A stretch of DNA of 64,000 nucleotides from Rhizobiales bacterium 62-17 (GTDB lineage Bacteria > Pseudomonadota > Alphaproteobacteria > Rhizobiales > Beijerinckiaceae): NCBI GenBank assembly GCA_001898965.1, contig MKVW01000009.1, forward strand, positions 310,001 to 374,000, written 5' to 3'. The notes beneath the pieces were generated by a model that was not told the origin of the DNA, made no database searches, and was given only the letters and a program-made list of their open reading frames with translations. Position 1 is the first letter of the stretch. The number at the start of each line of letters is the position of its first letter. The position numbers and the translations under genes are program-made. Positions 4,735 to 23,555 of this stretch are shown piece after piece.

Positions 4735-6432
4735 ATGCTTACTGAAGTCGACCCCCGCGCCGCCTCCATCGTCCGCAAGCTCTGCGGCCGATCGATCGTG
4801 CTCGTCGGCATGATGGGCTCGGGCAAGACCTCGGTCGGCCGCCGCCTGGCCCAGCGCCTCGGCCTCGATTTCGTCGACGCCGATCATGAGATCGAAGCCG
4901 CAGCCGACATGACCATTCAGGAAATCTTCGCCCGCCATGGCGAGGGCTATTTCCGCGATGGCGAGCGCCGCGTGATGGCGCGTCTCCTGGCGGAAAAGCA
5001 AAGGGTGCTGGCGACGGGCGGTGGCGCCTTCATGCAGGCGCTGACACGCGAGAACATTTCCCGCCACGGCGTGTCCGTCTGGCTCAATGCCGATCTCGAC
5101 GTACTGGCCCGCCGCGTCCGCAAGCGCACCAACCGGCCGATGCTGCACACCACCAATCCGGAAGACACCCTGCGCAAGCTCATCGACGAGCGCTATCCTG
5201 TCTATGCGCAGGCCGATGTCTCCGTTCTCTCCATCGACGGCCCGCATGACGTGGTCGTCGATGCCATCCTCGAACAACTCGAAACCAATCTCGATCGTCT
5301 CGTGCGCCAAGAAACTCCCACCCAAGCCACCGTCCGCGTCGAACTCGACAACCGCGCCTATGACATCGTCATCGGCCAGGATCTGATCGTCTCCGCCGGC
5401 CGCTATATCTCCACCCTGTTTCCGAAATCCGCTTGCGCCATCGTCACCGACGAGAATCTGGCGCGCGAACATCTGCCGGCGCTGGAGCGTGGCCTCGATG
5501 CCCATGGCATTCGCCACGCGCGCATCGTCATCACGCCGGGCGAACCGTCGAAATGCTGGAGCACGTTCGCCCGCGTCTGCGACGACATCATCGCCGCCAA
5601 GATGGAACGCGGCGATCTCGTCGTCGCGCTCGGCGGCGGTGTCGTCGGCGATCTGGCGGGCTTCGCCGCCGCCACCGTGCGGCGCGGCATGCGCTTCATC
5701 CAGATCCCCACCAGCCTGCTGGCGCAGGTCGATTCCTCCGTCGGCGGCAAGACCGCTATTAATTCCGACCATGGCAAAAATCTGATCGGCGCGTTCTATC
5801 AGCCTTCGCTCGTGCTGGCCGACACCGGCGCGCTCGCCACGCTGCCGCCGCGCGAATTCCGCGCCGGCTATGCCGAGGTTGTCAAATACGGGCTGATCGA
5901 CGACGCGCCGTTCTTCGACTGGCTCACCACCAACTGGCAGGCGATTTTCGCGCGCGGCCCCGAGCTGATCGAAGCCATCCGCAAGAGCTGCGCCTCGAAA
6001 GCCGCGGTCGTTGCCCGCGACGAGACCGAACAGGGCGACCGCGCGCTGCTCAATCTCGGCCACACCTTCGGCCATGCGCTGGAAACCCTGCTGCACTACG
6101 ACAACGAACGGCTCGTGCACGGCGAGGGTGTCGCCATCGGTGTGGCCTGTGCCGCCCGTTTCTCGGCAAAACTTGGTTATGCCAGCGCCAGCGATGCGGA
6201 ACGCGTCGAGGCGCATCTCAAGGAATGCGGCCTGCCGAGCCGCATCACCCAAATCAAGGGCTGGAACCACGGCCCCGATCAGATTCTCGAAGCCATGTAT
6301 CAGGACAAGAAAGTGCAGCGCGGATCGCTGACCTTCATTCTGATGCGCCGCATCGGCGAGAGTTTTATCGCGCGCGGTGTCGAGGCCGAGAAGGTGCGCG
6401 CCTTCCTCGACGAGGAACTGGCGCACCACTAA
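4735..6432 (+). CDS. aroKB: bifunctional shikimate kinase / 3-dehydroquinate synthase fusion
   Basis: One continuous 565-residue protein carries two consecutive enzyme domains of the shikimate pathway. The N-terminal 190 residues are shikimate kinase: Walker A GMMGSGKT (residues 25-32), the shikimate-binding DADHEIE segment, GGGAF, and the lid arginines near NRPM. From about residue 200 the protein is 3-dehydroquinate synthase, with GGGVVGDLAGF for NAD binding, the PTSLLAQVDSSVGGKT block, and metal ligands Glu in YAEVVKYG, His in NLGHTFGHALE and His in VHGEG. The enzymes catalyse non-adjacent steps (DAHP to dehydroquinate; shikimate to shikimate-3-phosphate). In most alphaproteobacteria aroK and aroB are separate neighbours. 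The ATG at 4735 matches the kinase N-terminus better than an in-frame start 57 bases upstream. Confidence 0.95.
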   Translation: MLTEVDPRAASIVRKLCGRSIVLVGMMGSGKTSVGRRLAQRLGLDFVDADHEIEAAADMTIQEIFARHGEGYFRDGERRVMARLLAEKQRVLATGGGAFMQALTRENISRHGVSVWLNADLDVLARRVRKRTNRPMLHTTNPEDTLRKLIDERYPVYAQADVSVLSIDGPHDVVVDAILEQLETNLDRLVRQETPTQATVRVELDNRAYDIVIGQDLIVSAGRYISTLFPKSACAIVTDENLAREHLPALERGLDAHGIRHARIVITPGEPSKCWSTFARVCDDIIAAKMERGDLVVALGGGVVGDLAGFAAATVRRGMRFIQIPTSLLAQVDSSVGGKTAINSDHGKNLIGAFYQPSLVLADTGALATLPPREFRAGYAEVVKYGLIDDAPFFDWLTTNWQAIFARGPELIEAIRKSCASKAAVVARDETEQGDRALLNLGHTFGHALETLLHYDNERLVHGEGVAIGVACAARFSAKLGYASASDAERVEAHLKECGLPSRITQIKGWNHGPDQILEAMYQDKKVQRGSLTFILMRRIGESFIARGVEAEKVRAFLDEELAHH

Positions 6433-6441
6433 GCTTCGCTC

Positions 6442-7458
6442 TTACGGCGCGAGCATGATCGTTTTCGCCCGCGCGATCACATCCGGCGGCGTATCAAGAA
6501 TGCGGTTGGAGATCTCCTGTGACTGTTCCCCGGTCAAAGGGCTCATATCGAGCCCCATCTTGCCCGCTTCCGCGAGAAAGGCCGGCGACACCACCGTCTG
6601 ATCGAAAGCCCGCCGCAGTGCGTTGAGGCGATCGGCGGGAACGCCAGGTGTCGTCACGAGTGAACGCGACAGGGCGACGCTCGCCGACAGAAAATCGAGG
6701 AGTGCCCGATCGTCGGCATTGGGCGCCAGCTCCAGAAGCAGTGGCACGTCCTTCATGTCGGGATGGCGCGTCAGGCCGATCTGAACGAGCGGGATGATCG
6801 TCTTGTCCTGAACCCAATCGGGTTTCGTCGCCTTCCAGGCGGCCCAGGCATTGGTCGCACGGCCCTGCACTTCGCCGCGCTCCATCGCCAGATTGACCTG
6901 CGCGCCGCCGGCATAGCCCGAGACGACAGAAACCTTATATCCAAGCTGTTGCAGCGCCCGCACATAATAAACCCCGCTATCGCCCGACGTCGTGCCGAGA
7001 ACCAGCGGATTGCCTTTCAAGGCGTCGATGGAGGTGACGCCGGCGGTATGCCAGGCCACCATGACATTGGGGCTGGTGCTGGTGTTGCCGACGAAGTTGA
7101 ACGCCCGCAGATCGAAAGCCACCTCCGGCGTGCCGATCGCCTGAAGCGTGCCGACGCTGGGAAACATCATGTGCAAGGTCGCGCCATCGCGCGGCACGCG
7201 CGTGGCCATATGGTTCATCGCGATGATGCCGCCGCCACCGGGCATATTGCGCGTGATGAAGGACGGATGGCCGGGGATGAACTCCGGCATGAAACGGGCG
7301 AGCAGCCTGGCGCGCAGATCGAAGTCATTGCCGGCCGTCGTCGGCACCAGCATTTCCATCGTCCGGCTGCGATAGAAGGATGCGACAGTGTCCTGAGCCT
7401 GGGCCGGGAGCACGATCGGCACCCAACACAGCGCGAGAAGACCAAGCAACCGCGTCAT
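6442..7458 (-). CDS. Bug/TctC-type periplasmic binding protein 1
   Basis: A 338-residue extracytoplasmic binding protein of the tripartite tricarboxylate transporter (Bug) family, with a Sec signal peptide ending around PAQAQD. Family features visible are the first strand followed by the ligand loop (MLVPTTAGNDFDLRARL), the Asn-Pro-Gly-Gly block (NMPGGGGIIAMNHMA) and the later FNFVGNTSTSPNVM segment. Bug proteins bind organic acids or aromatic acids through water-bridged carboxylates. No TctA or TctB membrane gene is nearby, so the partner is elsewhere or the protein senses rather than transports. An in-frame extension runs upstream, but the ATG at 7458 precedes the signal peptide. It lies 22 bases after a second Bug gene, in the MarR/CoA-transferase cluster, and converges on aroKB with nine bases between. 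Confidence 0.87.
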   Translation of the reverse strand: MTRLLGLLALCWVPIVLPAQAQDTVASFYRSRTMEMLVPTTAGNDFDLRARLLARFMPEFIPGHPSFITRNMPGGGGIIAMNHMATRVPRDGATLHMMFPSVGTLQAIGTPEVAFDLRAFNFVGNTSTSPNVMVAWHTAGVTSIDALKGNPLVLGTTSGDSGVYYVRALQQLGYKVSVVSGYAGGAQVNLAMERGEVQGRATNAWAAWKATKPDWVQDKTIIPLVQIGLTRHPDMKDVPLLLELAPNADDRALLDFLSASVALSRSLVTTPGVPADRLNALRRAFDQTVVSPAFLAEAGKMGLDMSPLTGEQSQEISNRILDTPPDVIARAKTIMLAP

Positions 7459-14767: not shown

Positions 14768-15532
14768 ATGTCATATCTGGGCATGGTCACCGAGGTTGTG
14801 CCGTTCGCCGCCCACGGGGGCGAGGCGGGACAGGCCTATTACGCGCGGCCGACGACGCAGCAGACCGTCGGCGGCGTCGTGCTGATCCACCATATGCCCG
14901 GCTGGGACGACTGGATTCAGGAGGCGACGCGCAAGCTCGCCCATTTCGGCTTCGCCTGCATTGCCCCCGATCTCTACTTCCGTGAACGGCCGGGCTCACC
15001 CGACGATTGCGCCGCCCGCGCCCGCGCCAAGGGCGGCGTCAGCGACGACCAGGTGATGGGCGATGTCGCCGGCGCCATGGCCTTTTTGCGCGCGCAATCC
15101 AACAGCAACGGCAAGGTCGGCGTGATGGGCTTCTGCTCCGGCGGCCGCCACACTTATCTCGCCGCCTGCCGGCTCAAGCGCATCGATGCCGCCGTCGACT
15201 GCTGGGGCGGTCGCGTGATCGTCGAGGATCCCGCCGACATCACGCCGGCCCGGCCGGTGGCACCGATCGAATTGTCGGCCGGCATCTCCTGCCCCCTGCT
15301 CGGCATTTTCGGCAATGACGACGCCAATCCGAGCCCGAAACAGGTCAACGACACCGAAGCCGTGCTGAAAAAACTCGGCAAAACCTACGAATTCCACCGC
15401 TACGACGGCGCCGGTCACGGCTTTTTCGCCGCCGATCGGCCGGCCTATCGGCCCGAACAGGCCACCGACGGCTGGCGCAAGGTCATCGATTTTCTCGACC
15501 GCACCATCGGCCCGCGCGCCCGCTTCGCCTGA
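14768..15532 (+). CDS. dienelactone hydrolase-family protein
   Basis: A 254-residue cytoplasmic alpha/beta hydrolase of the dienelactone hydrolase family. The nucleophile elbow is GFCSGG with Cys instead of Ser, as in carboxymethylenebutenolidase. The rest of the triad is recognisable as Asp in FGNDDANPSP and His in DGAGHGFF. VLIHHMPGWDDW near the N-terminus is the oxyanion strand. True dienelactone hydrolases act in chlorocatechol degradation, but many relatives are general esterases; no chlorocatechol genes are nearby, so the substrate is open. A small conserved gene follows after 21 bases and the two are probably co-transcribed. Confidence 0.85.
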   Translation: MSYLGMVTEVVPFAAHGGEAGQAYYARPTTQQTVGGVVLIHHMPGWDDWIQEATRKLAHFGFACIAPDLYFRERPGSPDDCAARARAKGGVSDDQVMGDVAGAMAFLRAQSNSNGKVGVMGFCSGGRHTYLAACRLKRIDAAVDCWGGRVIVEDPADITPARPVAPIELSAGISCPLLGIFGNDDANPSPKQVNDTEAVLKKLGKTYEFHRYDGAGHGFFAADRPAYRPEQATDGWRKVIDFLDRTIGPRARFA

Positions 15533-15553
15533 AGAACATCAAGGAAACCCGCC

Positions 15554-15829
15554 ATGTGCTCATACATCGTCGAAAAGGTCGCCCTCTACGGCAGCGCCAA
15601 GGCGCAAACGGACTGGCGCAGCATCGACACCGCCCATGTCTATTTCGACCATCCGTTCCACACGCCGCTCGACCACGCCCTGTCGATCGACTTCATCAAC
15701 GAAGCGGCCGGCGGGCGTGAGCGCATCGCCGTGGAACTGTCGGCCGAAACCGCCCGCGAACTGGTGAAGGCGATCTCCGCCGCTCTCGATCGCGGCGAGA
15801 TGGAACACGCCGGTCTTAACCAGTATTGA
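15554..15829 (+). CDS. small conserved protein (DUF6295-like)
   Basis: A 91-residue soluble protein with no signal peptide or membrane helix. It begins MCSYIVEKVALYGSAKA, contains a YFDHPFHTPLDHALSIDF block rich in His/Asp, and ends with a helix (VELSAETARELVKAISAALDRGEM). I recall this organisation as DUF6295, a family of unknown function common in Hyphomicrobiales; that assignment is from memory. It directly follows the dienelactone hydrolase-family gene, with a ribosome binding site in the 21-base gap. The YDHP-like block could bind metal, but no function is known. Confidence 0.7.
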   Translation: MCSYIVEKVALYGSAKAQTDWRSIDTAHVYFDHPFHTPLDHALSIDFINEAAGGRERIAVELSAETARELVKAISAALDRGEMEHAGLNQY

Positions 15830-15956
15830 GGCTTTCCCGTCACAGTAGAAAGTTACGTTCCGATCCGGGATATACAGTTCTTCCCGGGTACTATATGGTT
15901 TAGCTGGGGTTAAGCTGGCCTGGACAGCCGGCTAACGCGTGTAAGGAGCGTAAGGG

Positions 15957-17366
15957 GTGGCTGCGAAAATCTCGCCGGATTGCGGGCCGGCGAACGTTTG
16001 GGGGCGTGGCGATCAATCGGGGACGCGCCTCGGCCGATGGATTCAACGTCAGGCCGTCACCGCGCTGGGCGCGGCATTTCTCGTCCTTTCAACGGCTTCC
16101 TCGCAAGCGCAAACGGCGCAGCGAGCCGAGTTCGAACAGTTGTTCCAGGCCTCCCTGCGCAATCCCAGCGACGCCGCCTTGGCCTTCCGCTTCGCCGAAG
16201 TCGCCTCCCAGATTCAGGATTACGAAGCCGCCATCGGCGCGCTCGAGCGCATCCTGTTTTACAACAGCACCCTCGGCCGCGTTCGATTGGAACTCGGCAT
16301 TCTTTACTTCCGCCTCGGCTCTTATGCACAGGCCAAATCTTATCTTGAAACGGTTCTGGCCGAGCCGAACGTGCCCTTCGAAGTGCGCGCCCGCGTCCAG
16401 CCCTACCTGACCGAAATCGAGCGCCGTAACAGCCGGCACGGCTTCCAGGCTTTCGCCCAGATCGGCGTGCGCCATCAGAGCAATGCCAATGCCGGGCCGG
16501 ACGGCGGCAATGTCCGCATCTTCGGTTTCGACGGACAGATCAGCCAGAACTTCGCCCGCCGGCCGGACTGGAATCTCTTCGCCCTCGGCGGCATGCGCTA
16601 TGTCTATGACTTCGACAATCAGCGCGGCGACACCTGGGAAACCTTGGTGCAGGGCTACGCGACGCGGCAGAACCGCTTCACCCAGCTCGACGTCCTGCTC
16701 GGCGAGATCAACACCGGCCCGCGTCTCGCCATCCTGCCGGATGTGCTGACCGGCTGGACGTTCCGCCCCTATGTCATCGCCAACGGCTTCCAGCTCGGCG
16801 GCAATCCCTACATGCGCACCTTGGGCTATGGCGCCAGCGTCGCCGCGCCGACGCCATTCGGCGGCATCATCGAAGTGGGCGCCGAAAGCCGTCGCCGCAC
16901 CTTCTCCAATTCCTTCACCTATCCGACCGCCTTCGGCCAGACCGGCCGGCTCGACAACGCCTATGCCACCTTCGTCTATCCGGTGGCGCCTTGGGCGCGG
17001 TTGAACCTGCGCGCCGTGCTCGGCCGCAATGCCTCGATCGAAAGCTACAATTCCTTCAACCAGAACGGCTTTGAAGCATCGCTGTCGATGGACTTCGAAC
17101 CGCCTTTCGCGGCAATCCAGAAGCGCTGGACGGTGACGCCTTTCGTCAGTCGCTACGCCACCCGCTATACGACGCCCAACATCATCATCGATCCGTTCGT
17201 GCGTCGCAACGATATCGACTGGCGTGCCGGCGTCGCCTTCGACATGCCGGTGCATGAGAATTTCGGTTTCGGTGCGCAGCTCGTGTGGTCGAAGACCACG
17301 TCGAGCCTGGCCAACTACCGCACCAATAATTTCACCATCGTGATGGGCCCCACGGCTCGCTATTGA
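15957..17366 (+). CDS. TPR plus outer-membrane beta-barrel protein, Slam-like (DUF560)
   Basis: This 469-residue protein has a cleavable signal (core AVTALGAAFLVLSTASSQAQ, cleavage near residue 52). A TPR-like helical domain follows (about 55-150, for example YEAAIGALERILFYN and GILYFRLGSYAQAKSYLETVL). The remaining 300 residues consist of alternating aromatic/polar strands ending in an aromatic residue (TARY), the sign of an outer-membrane beta-barrel. The layout and length match Slam proteins (surface lipoprotein assembly modulator, type XI secretion), including the GVRHQSNANAGP stretch at the TPR/barrel junction. The next gene, ten bases downstream, ends in a TbpB-like domain, the usual Slam cargo type. 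Start is GTG at 15957 with AAGGAG upstream. A different TPR-barrel family is possible. Confidence 0.7.
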   Translation: MAAKISPDCGPANVWGRGDQSGTRLGRWIQRQAVTALGAAFLVLSTASSQAQTAQRAEFEQLFQASLRNPSDAALAFRFAEVASQIQDYEAAIGALERILFYNSTLGRVRLELGILYFRLGSYAQAKSYLETVLAEPNVPFEVRARVQPYLTEIERRNSRHGFQAFAQIGVRHQSNANAGPDGGNVRIFGFDGQISQNFARRPDWNLFALGGMRYVYDFDNQRGDTWETLVQGYATRQNRFTQLDVLLGEINTGPRLAILPDVLTGWTFRPYVIANGFQLGGNPYMRTLGYGASVAAPTPFGGIIEVGAESRRRTFSNSFTYPTAFGQTGRLDNAYATFVYPVAPWARLNLRAVLGRNASIESYNSFNQNGFEASLSMDFEPPFAAIQKRWTVTPFVSRYATRYTTPNIIIDPFVRRNDIDWRAGVAFDMPVHENFGFGAQLVWSKTTSSLANYRTNNFTIVMGPTARY

Positions 17367-17375
17367 TCGGAGACG

Positions 17376-19796
17376 ATGATGAAGCTGCGATCGACCCTTC
17401 TTTCCGGCCTCTCGCTTCTGGCACTGGCTTGCACGCCAGCGCTGGCGCAACAGAAGGTCGGCACCGCCGGCGCGGTCAATCCGGCGACGACATCGCAACG
17501 CGGCACGACGAGCCGCACCATCGACATGGGCAGCGACGTCATCTTCCGCGAGCGCATCGTCACCTCCGGCTCCGGCTCGCTGCAGGTCACCTTCGTCGAC
17601 AAATCGACGCTCAACATCGGACCGAACAGCCAGCTCGTCATCGACGAATTCGTCTATGATCCCAATGCGCAGACCGGCCGCACGGCGATCAGCCTGACAC
17701 GCGGCGCCATGCGCTTCGTCGGCGGCCAGATCAGCAAGAGCGGCAATGTCGCCATCAAGACGCCGACAGCGACGATCGGCGTGCGCGGCGGTGTGGCGAT
17801 GATCTTCCAGACGCCGCAGGGCACGCAGGTGACGAACCTGTTTGGCCGCACCACGGTGTCAACCGCTGGTGGCACCGAAGTGATCTCCAGGCCTGGCTTT
17901 GGCGTCGAGATCGTCGACCCCAATCAGTCGCCGCCGACACCCGAGCGCGTGACGCAAGCGCAGCTCGACGCGGCCAACAAACAATTGACCAGCCGCACCG
18001 CGCAGACCGGCGGCTCCAAGAATCCGCCCAGCGATACCACGGCGACGCAAAGCGGCCTCGGCCTCACCAATGCGATGACCGAGCCGCGCAACACCATTCC
18101 GCAGCAGCAGGCGAGCACGTCGACCAACGGACCACAAATCCTGTCGAGCTCACCGCAATACGTCAGTCAACTGACGCAAAACGCCACATCGGGAACCGCG
18201 GCCTCGCAGCGCCCCAACCCCAACGTGGCGCCGCCACCTCCGCCCCCGCCGCCGCCTCCACCCCCGCCGACCGCGCATAAGCCACGCACCTATGCGCTCG
18301 TCAGCGCCGGCGGCGCGCCCTATCTGATGGGCAATTTCATCACCAACGGTGCCGTCGTCATCACGCCGGCCTATGGCTATCGCAACGGCGGCGAAGGCAC
18401 CGCCGGTTCGCGTACGCGCTTTGCCACGGCCGCTCTCTCGATCAATGGACAGGGTGCCAACCAGCGCTCGACGCTGGCCGGCGCGACCGGCAGTTTCATC
18501 AGCGACGGCACGCCGGAGGGCTCGCGCTTCACCGGCGGCTTCGTCGCCGCAAGCCGCCAGAGCGCGGGCCAGGGCGCCGGCTTCTCCAGAGGCAATCTGA
18601 CATCCGTGCCCGGCAGCATCGCCCTCAACAATGATACGCTGCCGACGCAGATGGTGCTCAACCAGAACCGCTACGTGCCTTCGAGCGGCCAGATCGTGCC
18701 CGATCTCGCGACCCAGCATCTCGGCGACATGTCGCCGACCACGACCTACGGCTATCAGATCCCGGTGGCGGGCGGGCCCGCACCGAGCAACGTCGGCAAC
18801 AATCGCGCCGCCGGCGATTGGCAGGGCTATGCCGCCGGGACGATGCAATCCTTCACCATCGACTCGAACGGCAATGCATCGTCGAACGGCGACGCCGCGA
18901 TCATCTATGGCCAGACGCAACTCAAATTCAATCCGGGCAATTCGACGGCCTCCGGCTCCATCACCTTCGTCGAGGCTTTGGGCGGCTCGATCGGCGCGCT
19001 GGTCGGCGGCATTTTCCAGTTCGGCGCCAATCCGGCTGATCCGGCCGCACCCGTACGCTCCGCCTATATCGATCAAAACAATTGGGTGATGCGCGAGCAG
19101 GTCTCGCGCAACGGCACCACTGTCACGGGCAATTCCTACGCTCTCGAATACGAGCCATCGGAAACCTTCGCGCCCAGCAACAGCGGCAGCAGCGTCGCCC
19201 GTCCGTCCGATCCGAACCGGCCGAACAACATGGTGCTGGTGCCCTGGAGCATGTTCGAGGCGCAGGACGCCGCGACGGCGCGCAGCTTCTTCCCGACCAT
19301 CACCCAATGGCGCAATTACGAATACAGCCAGTGGGGCTTCTGGGCCGGCGAGATGAACTACACGTCGAACGACGGCACGCGCCAGCAATTGCGTACCGGC
19401 AACCTCAACACCTGGGTCGCCGGTCAGCCAACCGACATCGCCTCCATGCCGACCACGGGCTCGGGCACCTATACCGGCCATGCGGTCGCCAATATCCGCG
19501 CCGGCAGCAGCGAATATGTCGCCGGCGGCGATTTCTCGCATACGGTCGACTTCGGCGCCCGCACCGGCACCTTCGCCATCAACAATCTCGACGGCCGCAA
19601 CTACACCGGCACGTCGAACTTCCTCTCCAACAGCGTGAATTTCTACGGCGGCCTGACGGGCACGAATGCCGTTGGCACTTTCGACGGTTCGTTCTATGGC
19701 CCTAATGCCATCGAGACCGGCGGCCGCTTCATGTTCCAAAACACCGGCTACTCATCACCTTACATGGGCTCGGGTATTTTCATCGGCCGGCGCTAA
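17376..19796 (+). CDS. secreted FecR-domain protein with polyproline hinge and TbpB-like C-terminus
   Basis: An 806-residue exported protein with a signal peptide cleaved after PALA (about residue 24); a Cys lies at residue 19 but the surrounding lipobox is poor. Residues about 45-150 form a FecR domain (RERIVTSGSGSLQVTFVDKS, LNIGPNSQLVIDEFVYDP, IKTPTATIGVRGG). A Gln/Ser/Thr-rich linker leads to 13 consecutive prolines (286-298). The remaining 500 residues are Gly/Asn/Ser-rich beta structure. The C-terminus contains FYGPNAIETGGRF (773-785), the hallmark of the transferrin-binding-protein-B-like beta-barrel. It lies ten bases after the Slam-like gene, so the pair looks like exporter plus cargo. 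There is no sigma factor or FecA-type receptor beside it, so a classical FecR signalling role is unlikely. Confidence 0.75.
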   Translation: MMKLRSTLLSGLSLLALACTPALAQQKVGTAGAVNPATTSQRGTTSRTIDMGSDVIFRERIVTSGSGSLQVTFVDKSTLNIGPNSQLVIDEFVYDPNAQTGRTAISLTRGAMRFVGGQISKSGNVAIKTPTATIGVRGGVAMIFQTPQGTQVTNLFGRTTVSTAGGTEVISRPGFGVEIVDPNQSPPTPERVTQAQLDAANKQLTSRTAQTGGSKNPPSDTTATQSGLGLTNAMTEPRNTIPQQQASTSTNGPQILSSSPQYVSQLTQNATSGTAASQRPNPNVAPPPPPPPPPPPPPTAHKPRTYALVSAGGAPYLMGNFITNGAVVITPAYGYRNGGEGTAGSRTRFATAALSINGQGANQRSTLAGATGSFISDGTPEGSRFTGGFVAASRQSAGQGAGFSRGNLTSVPGSIALNNDTLPTQMVLNQNRYVPSSGQIVPDLATQHLGDMSPTTTYGYQIPVAGGPAPSNVGNNRAAGDWQGYAAGTMQSFTIDSNGNASSNGDAAIIYGQTQLKFNPGNSTASGSITFVEALGGSIGALVGGIFQFGANPADPAAPVRSAYIDQNNWVMREQVSRNGTTVTGNSYALEYEPSETFAPSNSGSSVARPSDPNRPNNMVLVPWSMFEAQDAATARSFFPTITQWRNYEYSQWGFWAGEMNYTSNDGTRQQLRTGNLNTWVAGQPTDIASMPTTGSGTYTGHAVANIRAGSSEYVAGGDFSHTVDFGARTGTFAINNLDGRNYTGTSNFLSNSVNFYGGLTGTNAVGTFDGSFYGPNAIETGGRFMFQNTGYSSPYMGSGIFIGRR

Positions 19797-19916
19797 GCAC
19801 ATTGCGTTTCGATAAAACGCCTGGAACGATGGACTTGCTCCGCGAGTTTGCCTTTGGGCAGCGGGTTCCACGGTAACGGTCGCAAGCCGCGACGGTGAAG
19901 ACGAAAGGAATGCACC

Positions 19917-20876
19917 ATGACGGAGCTTTCCGAGAGTCGAGACAATACGCTCATCGAAACGCCCGGCTGCAGCGCGGCCGAAGGCACCGTGCACTGGGAC
20001 CTCGTTCATTCCCTCTGGAATGGCGGCATGCTCGCCGCCGCTTTAATCCTGGGACCACTGTTCTTCACCTGGAGCGCCCTGGCGGTTTTCTTGGCTTTGA
20101 CCGGCGCGGCGCTTCTCCTCGGCCACAGCGTCGGCTTCCACCGCCGTCTGATTCACCACAGTTTCGATTGTCCGTTGTGGCTCGAACGCACGCTGGTATG
20201 GGTCGGCACTTGCGTCGGCATGAGCGGCCCGTTCTGGATGATGAAAACCCATGACCTCAGAGACTGGGCGCAGCGCCAGCCGGTCTGTCACGATTATCTC
20301 GGCCATGGCCGCCCGATGCTGATCGATGGGTTTTGGCAATTGCACTGCCGGCTCGAACTGACGCGCCCGCCTACTTTCGATCTCGGCGCCGCCGGTCGCG
20401 ATCCCTTCTATCGTTTTCTTGAAGCCACCTGGATGCTGCAACAAGTGCCGATTGCCGCACTGCTCTTTCTCGCTGGCGGTTGGCCTTGGGTGATCTGGGG
20501 TGTCTGCGCCCGCGTCAGCCTGTCAGTGACCGGCCATTGGCTCGTCGGCCATCTCGCCCATCGCCACGGGCCGCAGAGCTGGCTGGTGCAAGGCGCCGCC
20601 GTGCAGGCGCACGACGTACCCTGGGCCGCTGTACCAACCATGGGCGAAGCCTGGCATAACAATCATCACGCCTTCCCCCGGTCGGCGCGGATCGGCCTTT
20701 ATCCCGGACAAAGCGACTGGGGCTATCGTTTCATCCTTCTGCTGGAACGTCTCGGCCTCGCCTGGAACATTCTCCTGCCCACGGATTTGCCGCACCGACA
20801 GATGCTGGTGCCCGCCCCGTCGGAAGGCTCGCATCACGCCCATGCGGCAGTCGCACGCGCGCCTGGGAGAAGCTGA
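19917..20876 (+). CDS. acyl-CoA desaturase-like membrane di-iron protein with altered His box 2
   Basis: A 319-residue membrane protein with hydrophobic helices at about 34-80 and 155-190. It has desaturase histidine boxes: box 1 as FHRRLIHHSF and box 3 as EAWHNNHHAFP, plus GHLAHRHG at the position of the auxiliary ligand. The second box, normally HxxHH, reads THDLRDWAQRQ followed by CHDYLGHG, so some metal ligands must come from other His or Asp residues or differ from stearoyl-type enzymes. Such proteins introduce double bonds into fatty acyl chains, but the substrate here is unknown. Four bases separate it from the next gene, indicating an operon. Confidence 0.8.
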   Translation: MTELSESRDNTLIETPGCSAAEGTVHWDLVHSLWNGGMLAAALILGPLFFTWSALAVFLALTGAALLLGHSVGFHRRLIHHSFDCPLWLERTLVWVGTCVGMSGPFWMMKTHDLRDWAQRQPVCHDYLGHGRPMLIDGFWQLHCRLELTRPPTFDLGAAGRDPFYRFLEATWMLQQVPIAALLFLAGGWPWVIWGVCARVSLSVTGHWLVGHLAHRHGPQSWLVQGAAVQAHDVPWAAVPTMGEAWHNNHHAFPRSARIGLYPGQSDWGYRFILLLERLGLAWNILLPTDLPHRQMLVPAPSEGSHHAHAAVARAPGRS

Positions 20877-22371: not shown

Positions 22372-22677
22372 CTACAGCCCTGAACGGGCCGCCAGCTTGT
22401 CGATCTCGCGCGCCAGAGCGATATCGCGCTCCGACAGGCCCTTGGCATCGTGGGTGGTCAGCAGGATCGAAACGCGGTTGTAGACATTCGACCATTCCGG
22501 ATGGTGATCGGCCTTCTCCGCCAGGAGCGCCACAGCGGACATGAACGAGAACGCCTCGACGAAATTCTCGAACTTGAAATCGCGCGTAATGGCATCGCGT
22601 TCGAAATGATAATGCCAGGCGCCTAAGCCCGCCAAAGCCTTGTCGCGCGCCGCCGCATCGAGCTTCTTGACCATCAT
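22372..22677 (-). CDS. phhB: pterin-4-alpha-carbinolamine dehydratase
   Basis: PhhB dehydrates 4a-hydroxytetrahydrobiopterin formed by phenylalanine hydroxylase, regenerating the pterin cofactor. The 101-residue length is normal. The active-site signature [18 protein letters not shown], with the two catalytic histidines and the Pro-Glu-Trp, is followed by [12 protein letters not shown], as in PCD/DCoH proteins. The start overlaps the phhA stop by four bases, so the two are coupled and co-expressed. Confidence 0.94.
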
Positions 22678-23555
22678 CCCGCCTTTGACTGCGTTTGTCC
22701 CTTGGCATGCGCATAAGCCTGCGTGCCCAGATGATAGACGATATCGTCGGGCAGCACCGCATCGGTCGCATAGGGCTCCGAGCCTTCGAGCTCTTCGTAG
22801 ATCGGCCCGAAATCGGTCTTCTCGGTCTTTTCGAGCAGATCTTCCAGACTGTCGATGACGAAATAGGTCTGCTGATAATCGTCGATCTTGTAATTGGTGC
22901 GCATCAAACGCTTCAGGCCGAAACCCAACCGATTGGGTGAGGGATCGTCGAGCGCGAACACCGATTCGCCATAGGACGAGACGATGCCGGCGCCATAGAT
23001 GCGCAGATGATCGCCGTCACGGATCAGGCCGAACTCCACCGTGTACCAATAGAGCCGCGCCAGCTTTTCGATGGCACCGCGTCCGGCGGCGCGCAGGCCG
23101 CCCCGGCCATAAGCCTGCATGTAATCGGCGAAGACCGGATGGGCGAGCAGCGGCACGTGGCCGAAGACATCGTGAAACACATCCGGCTCTTCGAGATAAT
23201 CGATCTGCTGCGGCGTACGAATGAAGCGTCCGGCGACGAAACGTCGATTGGCGAGATGGTCGAAGAACACTTCGTCGGGCACGAGGCCCGGCACGGCCAC
23301 CACCTGCCAGCCGGTCGCCTTCATCAGCCGATCGCTGAGTTCGTTGAAATCGGGAATGCCCGGTTTCGACAGACGCAGAATGTCGAGCCCTTCGAGGAAA
23401 GCCGGCGTCACGCGCTGCGGCAGCATGGCCGACTGTCGCTGAAACAACCGATCCCACATGGCATGCTCGTCCGGCCGATAGCTGGACCAGTCTTGCGGAA
23501 TGGTCCAGTCCGTGGCCGCACCCGGCGGCGGGGAAGATGACAAGACCGTCGTCAT
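22674..23555 (-). CDS. phhA: phenylalanine 4-monooxygenase
   Basis: A 293-residue bacterial-type phenylalanine hydroxylase that converts phenylalanine to tyrosine using tetrahydropterin, O2 and a mononuclear iron. The catalytic core is intact: [25 protein letters not shown] carries the two iron-binding histidines, and [10 protein letters not shown] carries the iron-binding Glu. [15 protein letters not shown] corresponds to the substrate and pterin pocket. No N-terminal ACT regulatory domain is present, as usual in bacteria. phhB follows with a 4-base overlap. The gene is divergent from the ABC binding protein gene, with 404 bases between, and no TyrR/PhhR-type activator gene lies beside it. 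Confidence 0.95.

Follow-up and report, generated by a model that had tools for sequence, protein, structure and literature searches.

We describe a pair of adjacent genes in Rhizobiales bacterium 62-17 that probably encode an outer-membrane exporter and the substrate matched to it, acting like a type 11 secretion system (T11SS, or Slam) pair, in which the putative cargo combines an N-terminal FecR domain with a C-terminal barrel lobe of the TbpB type. The pair lies in a stretch of 64,000 nucleotides (contig MKVW01000009.1, positions 310,001 to 374,000; "the window", whose own numbering is used below). An earlier note made from the sequence alone had read the two genes as a Slam-like secretion pair, and sequence and structure checks support that reading, apart from the search of the barrel protein alone against PF04575. 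Both open reading frames (ORFs) are where it had placed them, on the forward strand: the barrel-protein gene (15957-17366, GTG start, 469 amino acids) is followed by that of the cargo (17376-19796, ATG start), an exported protein of 806 residues, as claimed. The gap between the genes, given there as ten bases, measures 9 (17366 to 17376). The features of the two genes are as follows.

15957..17366, + strand: predicted Slam-like outer-membrane protein gene, signal peptide to about residue 50 (ORF; TPR matches; hhalign to PF04575-positive Slams).
16107..16430, + strand: six N-terminal TPR-type helices, mature residues 2-109 (AlphaFold2 model; TPR_9 9e-6).
16437..17360, + strand: 14-strand transmembrane beta-barrel, mature residues 112-419 (14 long strands; predicted local distance difference test, pLDDT, mostly 85-98).
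17376..19796, + strand: cargo gene, with signal peptide, FecR domain, helix, proline-rich linker, beta region and C-lobe (ORF; Pfam; AlphaFold2 model).
17376..17450, + strand: Sec-type signal peptide, residues 1-25 (..PALAQ), without a lipobox (sequence; family-wide lipobox scan).
17553..17846, + strand: FecR domain, residues 60-157 (PF04773 1.3e-12; 5ix9 E 2.5e-6; hhalign to retention modules E 1.9e-10).
17955..18020, + strand: helix and conserved GQxGGxxxxPPxD-type motif 3' of the FecR domain (AlphaFold2 helix, full-length residues 194-204; motif count).
18231..18269, + strand: 13-proline run in a disordered linker, residues 286-298 (sequence; linker mostly pLDDT <50).
18285..18776, + strand: beta-rich middle region, residues 304-467, without a known family (pLDDT mostly 85-95; no Pfam match).
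18801..19793, + strand: C-lobe, a handle and 8-strand TbpB/fHbp-like barrel, residues 476-806, with TbpB_B_D at 691-790 (Pfam; structural matches).

Both domains proposed for the cargo exceed their Pfam cut-offs: FecR at residues 60-157 (48 bits versus 24) and, in the C-terminal barrel, TbpB_B_D at residues 691-790 (31 versus 26 bits), together with FHBP_C at residues 690-784 (30.5 versus 28.1 bits). The NCBIfam model slam_lipo also matches (7e-13), yet below its cut-off (49 versus 80 bits). The stretch FYGPNAIETGGRF, which had been singled out as a TbpB-like C-terminal signature, lies at residues 773-785; the fold of the C-lobe is that of T11SS cargo. An AlphaFold2 model of the mature protein has low confidence over the signal-proximal stretch and the linker and values mostly of 85-97 over the C-lobe, which forms a handle and an 8-strand barrel, the TbpB-like barrel that had been expected. 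TbpB structures ranked best in a Foldseek search with this model (E 2.7e-7), and VIA-align gave the C-lobe Z-scores of 13-17 against known cargo and relatives (NHBA, 17.1; fHbp, ∼15; TbpB, 14.8; hemophilin, 14.1; HphA, 13.7; HpuA, 13.6); the papers cited here list each of them as Slam/T11SS cargo except NHBA, which is treated as related. Foldseek aligned the full two-lobed TbpB to the model, but when the profile of the middle region (residues 304-467) was set against that of the C-lobe barrel the probability was 0.1, and no second copy of the barrel was detectable there. The further claim that FecR makes up the whole N-terminal half stands only in part: the domain is present, but it spans about 100 residues, the remainder being helix and disorder. 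The signal peptide, MMKLRSTLLSGLSLLALACTPALAQQ, is by eye of the Sec, SPI (signal peptidase I) type; it has a Cys but no lipobox, and even the Cys is missing in the 82%-identical orthologue. The suspected lack of a clear lipobox thus holds for the window cargo and also for the family, as only one (L251) of 119 FecR proteins scanned has a plausible one.

By profile comparison, the barrel protein falls within the Slam superfamily. Pfam finds TPR repeats (TPR_9 9e-6) and a faint trace of TPR_Slam (E 0.24). We used hhalign to compare two profiles, one built from nine proteins of the same clade (A2) and one from eight PF04575-matching proteins of related genomes (A1); they matched with a probability of 99.9 (E 1.1e-34) over 370 columns spanning both the TPR and the barrel. 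Two clade members pass the PF04575 cut-off of 22 themselves (G051, 22.5 bits; G050, 23.4 bits), and in a wider clade set 3 of 25 match PF04575 at E<=0.01. The AlphaFold2 model, built from a 25-sequence alignment, has a mean pLDDT of 90.8 and contains six helices of the TPR type along with 14 long strands, so the predicted 14-strand barrel is present; Slam is described as an N-terminal TPR domain with a 14-strand barrel (PMC5449769). By analogy with Slam, the TPR-type helices would be periplasmic.

The two genes co-occur and adjoin in many genomes. Among 297 genomes of the order, the full-length outer-membrane protein (OMP) was found in 34, the C-half of the cargo in 27 and both in 26, and in all 26 the genes are adjacent. 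Thus the C-half occurs in 26 of 34 OMP-bearing genomes versus 1 of 263 without the OMP (Fisher 3e-29, uncorrected for kinship; 11 families), which settles in favor of the pair the co-occurrence check that the earlier note had proposed; a FecR gene lies within ∼3 kb of all 34 OMP genes. A scan of named genomes, for which the query was the cargo C-half alone with FecR left out, returned 35 loci, in Nitrobacter, Microvirga, Chelatococcus, Roseibium and other genera, and FecR was in the same ORF in 34. In 26 of these loci the OMP gene immediately precedes the cargo gene or is separated from it by a single FecR gene; the remaining nine comprise six Nitrobacter-type loci, for all six of which the genome carries the OMP at another site, and three short contigs or contig ends. 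Of 61 related genomes, G022 (82/88% identical), G034, G035 and G004 also have the pair, as does G050, which belongs to another family. In three genomes of the same genus (G029, G013 and G020), the gene order is reversed and the gene of a FecR-TbpB protein shares four bases with that of a PF04575-matching OMP (38-51 bits), which ties the new cargo type directly to recognised Slams; ordinary lipobox cargo with a Slam is also present in this genus (G023, G007, G021 and G002). Outside the order, a class-level sample of 40 loci, chosen as the best OMP matches and not drawn at random, has a FecR gene beside the OMP in 29, with the barrel in the same ORF by hidden Markov model in 15. Fourteen genomes were picked mostly for a solitary OMP, and 13 of them have a cargo-profile match elsewhere, several being full-length FecR-barrel proteins. 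Beyond the Alphaproteobacteria, a Deltaproteobacteria metagenome-assembled genome (L121:3231-6510) has a FecR and barrel-lobe cargo beside a Slam-like OMP, which suggests wider spread or transfer.

No part of the cargo is as constant as FecR: among 31 members, Pfam detects FecR in all 31, FHBP_C in 20 and TbpB_B_D in 10. FecR is followed by a helix and a GQxGG..PP-type motif, the motif being present in 14 of the 31 (versus 1.8 in shuffles). The run of 13 consecutive prolines reported for the window cargo is real (residues 286-298, 18231-18269) and is written in all four proline codons, mixed. The run varies within the family: the closest two cargos have 13 and 14 prolines, G034 has Pro-Thr repeats, many have no run at all, and one FecR-barrel cargo has an extreme linker of 19 separate polyproline runs (L095:4348-7578). 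We therefore rejected polyproline as a defining feature of the family, the run being specific to the closest relatives; a fixed, membrane-spanning run length is likewise unsupported, as the run is too variable. Two or three FecR proteins stand in tandem at some loci (L174, L175, L177, L180 and L182). Other arrangements were also seen. At L076 (G051; 6373-7143, − strand), a FecR-only partner ends in prolines and is followed by two in-frame stops and then a long ORF of RTX-like (GGxGxDxxx) repeats, possibly a broken or slipped joint of FecR to a different surface module. An OMP-adjoining FecR protein (L242:4420-5718, − strand) ends in many PPPPVVT repeats without a barrel lobe, while G100 and G281 each have a second copy of the OMP, followed by a barrel-lobe protein without detectable FecR (L183:6544-8673 and L184:5057-7177). 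On contig C1 of its own genome (L002:961-2103, − strand), the source organism has a second FecR protein with a long Pro/Gly/Arg-rich tail and no barrel lobe, beside a DnaJ-like gene.

Computation shows directly that the genes are paired, which domains and folds the proteins have, that the barrel protein is related to the Slam superfamily, that a lipobox is missing and that FecR is homologous to retention modules; translocation of the cargo, its direction and a FecR anchor are what we infer. Both proteins would be taken into the periplasm by Sec, and the barrel protein would insert in the outer membrane, the TPR domain facing the periplasm. The C-terminal barrel lobe of the cargo, still unfolded, would then be recognised, be led through the 14-strand barrel or along it, and fold outside. 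Because the cargo is without lipid, we propose FecR as its anchor: the N-terminal domain would fold at an early stage and remain periplasmic, and the membrane would be spanned by the disordered Pro-rich linker.

This lipid-free anchor is a tentative proposal, made plausible by the homology to retention modules, the shared order of domains and the limit of Slam1 to unfolded TbpB. Among solved structures the FecR family profile matches one (E 2.5e-6): 5ix9, whose record names an antifreeze protein and which we take to be the Marinomonas primoryensis adhesin. The matched segment is a LapA-type retention module by NCBIfam (1.3e-10). By hhalign, a profile built from 19 such modules and that of FecR align over 75 columns (probability 96.9, E 1.9e-10); the module profile gave a probability of 0.2 or less with the cargo barrel and with the OMP. 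Retention modules stay periplasmic, holding adhesins of type 1 and type 5b secretion systems (T1SS and T5bSS) at the outer membrane, and consist of a beta domain, a helix and a disordered stretch, in that order (PMC13090378). Only unfolded TbpB is moved by Slam1 (PMC9090332), and early folding of a domain in the periplasm could therefore halt transit. The fuller proposal, that the exporter doubles as the anchor (LapA-like, with a Slam-type exporter) and that such pairs are a major Alphaproteobacterial form of T11SS, missed since the barrel scores below the Pfam threshold, is one that we regard as somewhat unlikely.

A number of observations weigh against our interpretation, some touching the pair and others the anchor. 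The barrel protein taken alone has no match to PF04575 (SlipAM/DUF560) at E<=1 in the Pfam search, which was not what the earlier note had anticipated, and because it fails PF04575 as Pfam draws that family we have not filed it as a plain Slam. Foldseek with the barrel model returned general porins and, as its top match, the cellulose exporter BcsC, the nearest solved TPR-barrel (TM-score 0.30-0.39), and no Slam structure was among the matches. No FecR gene adjoins the OMP in 11 of the 40 class-level loci, and elsewhere its partners are FecR-only proteins without a C-terminal barrel (G010, G015, G051, G274 and G321), so the barrel lobe is not universal. As for the anchor, the many cargos and few OMPs of G611 are awkward for one plug per channel, and the proline run is not conserved. 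The window FecR does not reach the curated cut-off of the retention model NF033682 (15.3 versus 50 bits); some match to this model occurs in 137 of 299 genomes, mostly sub-cut-off and confined to its first ∼65 positions, and the similarity over ∼75 residues seems common to FecR-type domains in general. A LapG-type cleavage motif, [T/A/P]AAG, follows FecR in 4 of 31 members versus 2.9 in shuffles and is thus not enriched. Two further ideas were rejected: LapG-type release, given the lack of an enriched motif, even though the source genome has one Peptidase_C93 (LapG-like) protein, encoded on another contig and unlinked to the locus (G000:C3:757258-757734, L217); and iron signalling by FecR, as no sigma factor or TonB receptor was seen beside the pair.

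The most durable alternative concerns the anchor step and leaves the pair intact: FecR may also cross the membrane and act outside, for instance in binding or adhesion, with the protein released or otherwise held. The resemblance of the FecR domain to Leptospira LipL45 and the surface adhesin Lsa33 is in keeping with this, as are the export of soluble cargo by T11SS (PMC8406197, PMC12282271), the usual T11SS cargo plan of an N-terminal effector and a C-terminal barrel, and the appearance in some genomes of one exporter common to several cargos. However, FecR is constant, whereas the effectors vary in other T11SS cargo, and its profile homology is to modules that are retained in the periplasm; we consider an external FecR a credible possibility, if short of an even chance. 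Alternatively, the barrel protein might work mainly with FecR, as a periplasmic plug or regulator on its TPR domain or barrel, with the TbpB-like lobe optional. FecR-only proteins adjoin the more distant OMPs of the clade and stand as paralogues in tandem with FecR-barrel cargos (L104, L117 and L174), and FecR is near every order-level OMP gene, but most loci keep the T11SS-cargo barrel, whose fold is that of exported Slam substrates, and we find this reading improbable. The TPR-and-barrel plan and the top Foldseek match would also suit a BcsC-like polysaccharide exporter to which the FecR protein is accessory; with so low a TM-score, no polysaccharide synthase gene seen adjoining the pair within the window, a Slam profile match and a T11SS-cargo fold encoded next door, this is very unlikely. 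The window context (dienelactone hydrolase, DUF6295 and a desaturase-like protein) is silent on secretion, but adjacency is conserved in 11 families of the order and also outside it, which refutes a chance association of genes with unrelated functions, to which we give almost no weight. An exporter and its cargo thus remain our preferred interpretation.

Experimentally verified T11SS exporters come from a single, animal-associated sequence cluster, and the cargo survey describes about ten architectures from cluster 1 and a few from cluster 3 (PMC12282271). In the open literature searched, three T11SS cargo surveys (PMC12282271, PMC8406197, PMC5449769) make no mention of FecR in their main text, although there may be an unindexed description; this agrees with the earlier note, to which no described Slam cargo of such architecture was known. 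The OMPs of the window clade may fall in one of the unexamined T11SS sequence clusters. The pair represents a widespread Alphaproteobacterial branch that has a cargo architecture of its own and includes free-living, nitrifying and marine genera; many proteins otherwise filed only as FecR-domain proteins would gain a predicted surface location; and with the pair one can ask directly if a Slam-type cargo that has no lipid can be kept on the cell by a folded N-terminal domain.

Around the pair, a promoter scan of 15500-20000 gave no sigma-70-like site, although such a scan is uninformative in DNA as G+C-rich as this. Farther along the window (22674-23555, − strand) is a biopterin-dependent aromatic amino acid hydroxylase, probably a phenylalanine 4-monooxygenase (PF00351 1e-47).

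Among known systems, Leptospira LipL45 and Lsa33 resemble the cargo in having a FecR domain on an envelope protein; to our knowledge they have no T11SS-type barrel lobe or Slam-like partner. LapA-type modules (NF033682; 5ix9) are homologous over ∼75 residues around the first part of FecR, including the stretch just before it, and have the same order of beta domain, helix and disordered stretch, but FecR scores far below the NF033682 cut-off and lacks a LapG site, and a Sec signal peptide and Slam-like barrel take the place of T1SS or T5bSS. Slam/T11SS OMPs (PF04575 SlipAM with PF24575 TPR_Slam) share with the barrel protein the TPR and 14-strand barrel, an end-to-end profile match and a TbpB-barrel cargo alongside, whereas the window protein and most of its clade fall below Pfam SlipAM detection, and the order here is OMP followed by cargo, as opposed to lipoprotein cargo followed by OMP in the classic Slams of the same genus. 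Finally, although FecR replaces the N-terminal effector or lipid anchor of T11SS cargo and the lipobox is absent (lipidation being typical of such cargo, not required), the window cargo has in common with TbpB, LbpB, fHbp, HpuA and hemophilin/HphA/HrpC, and with the related NHBA, a C-terminal handle and 8-strand barrel, a Sec signal peptide and a gene adjoining that of a Slam-like OMP.

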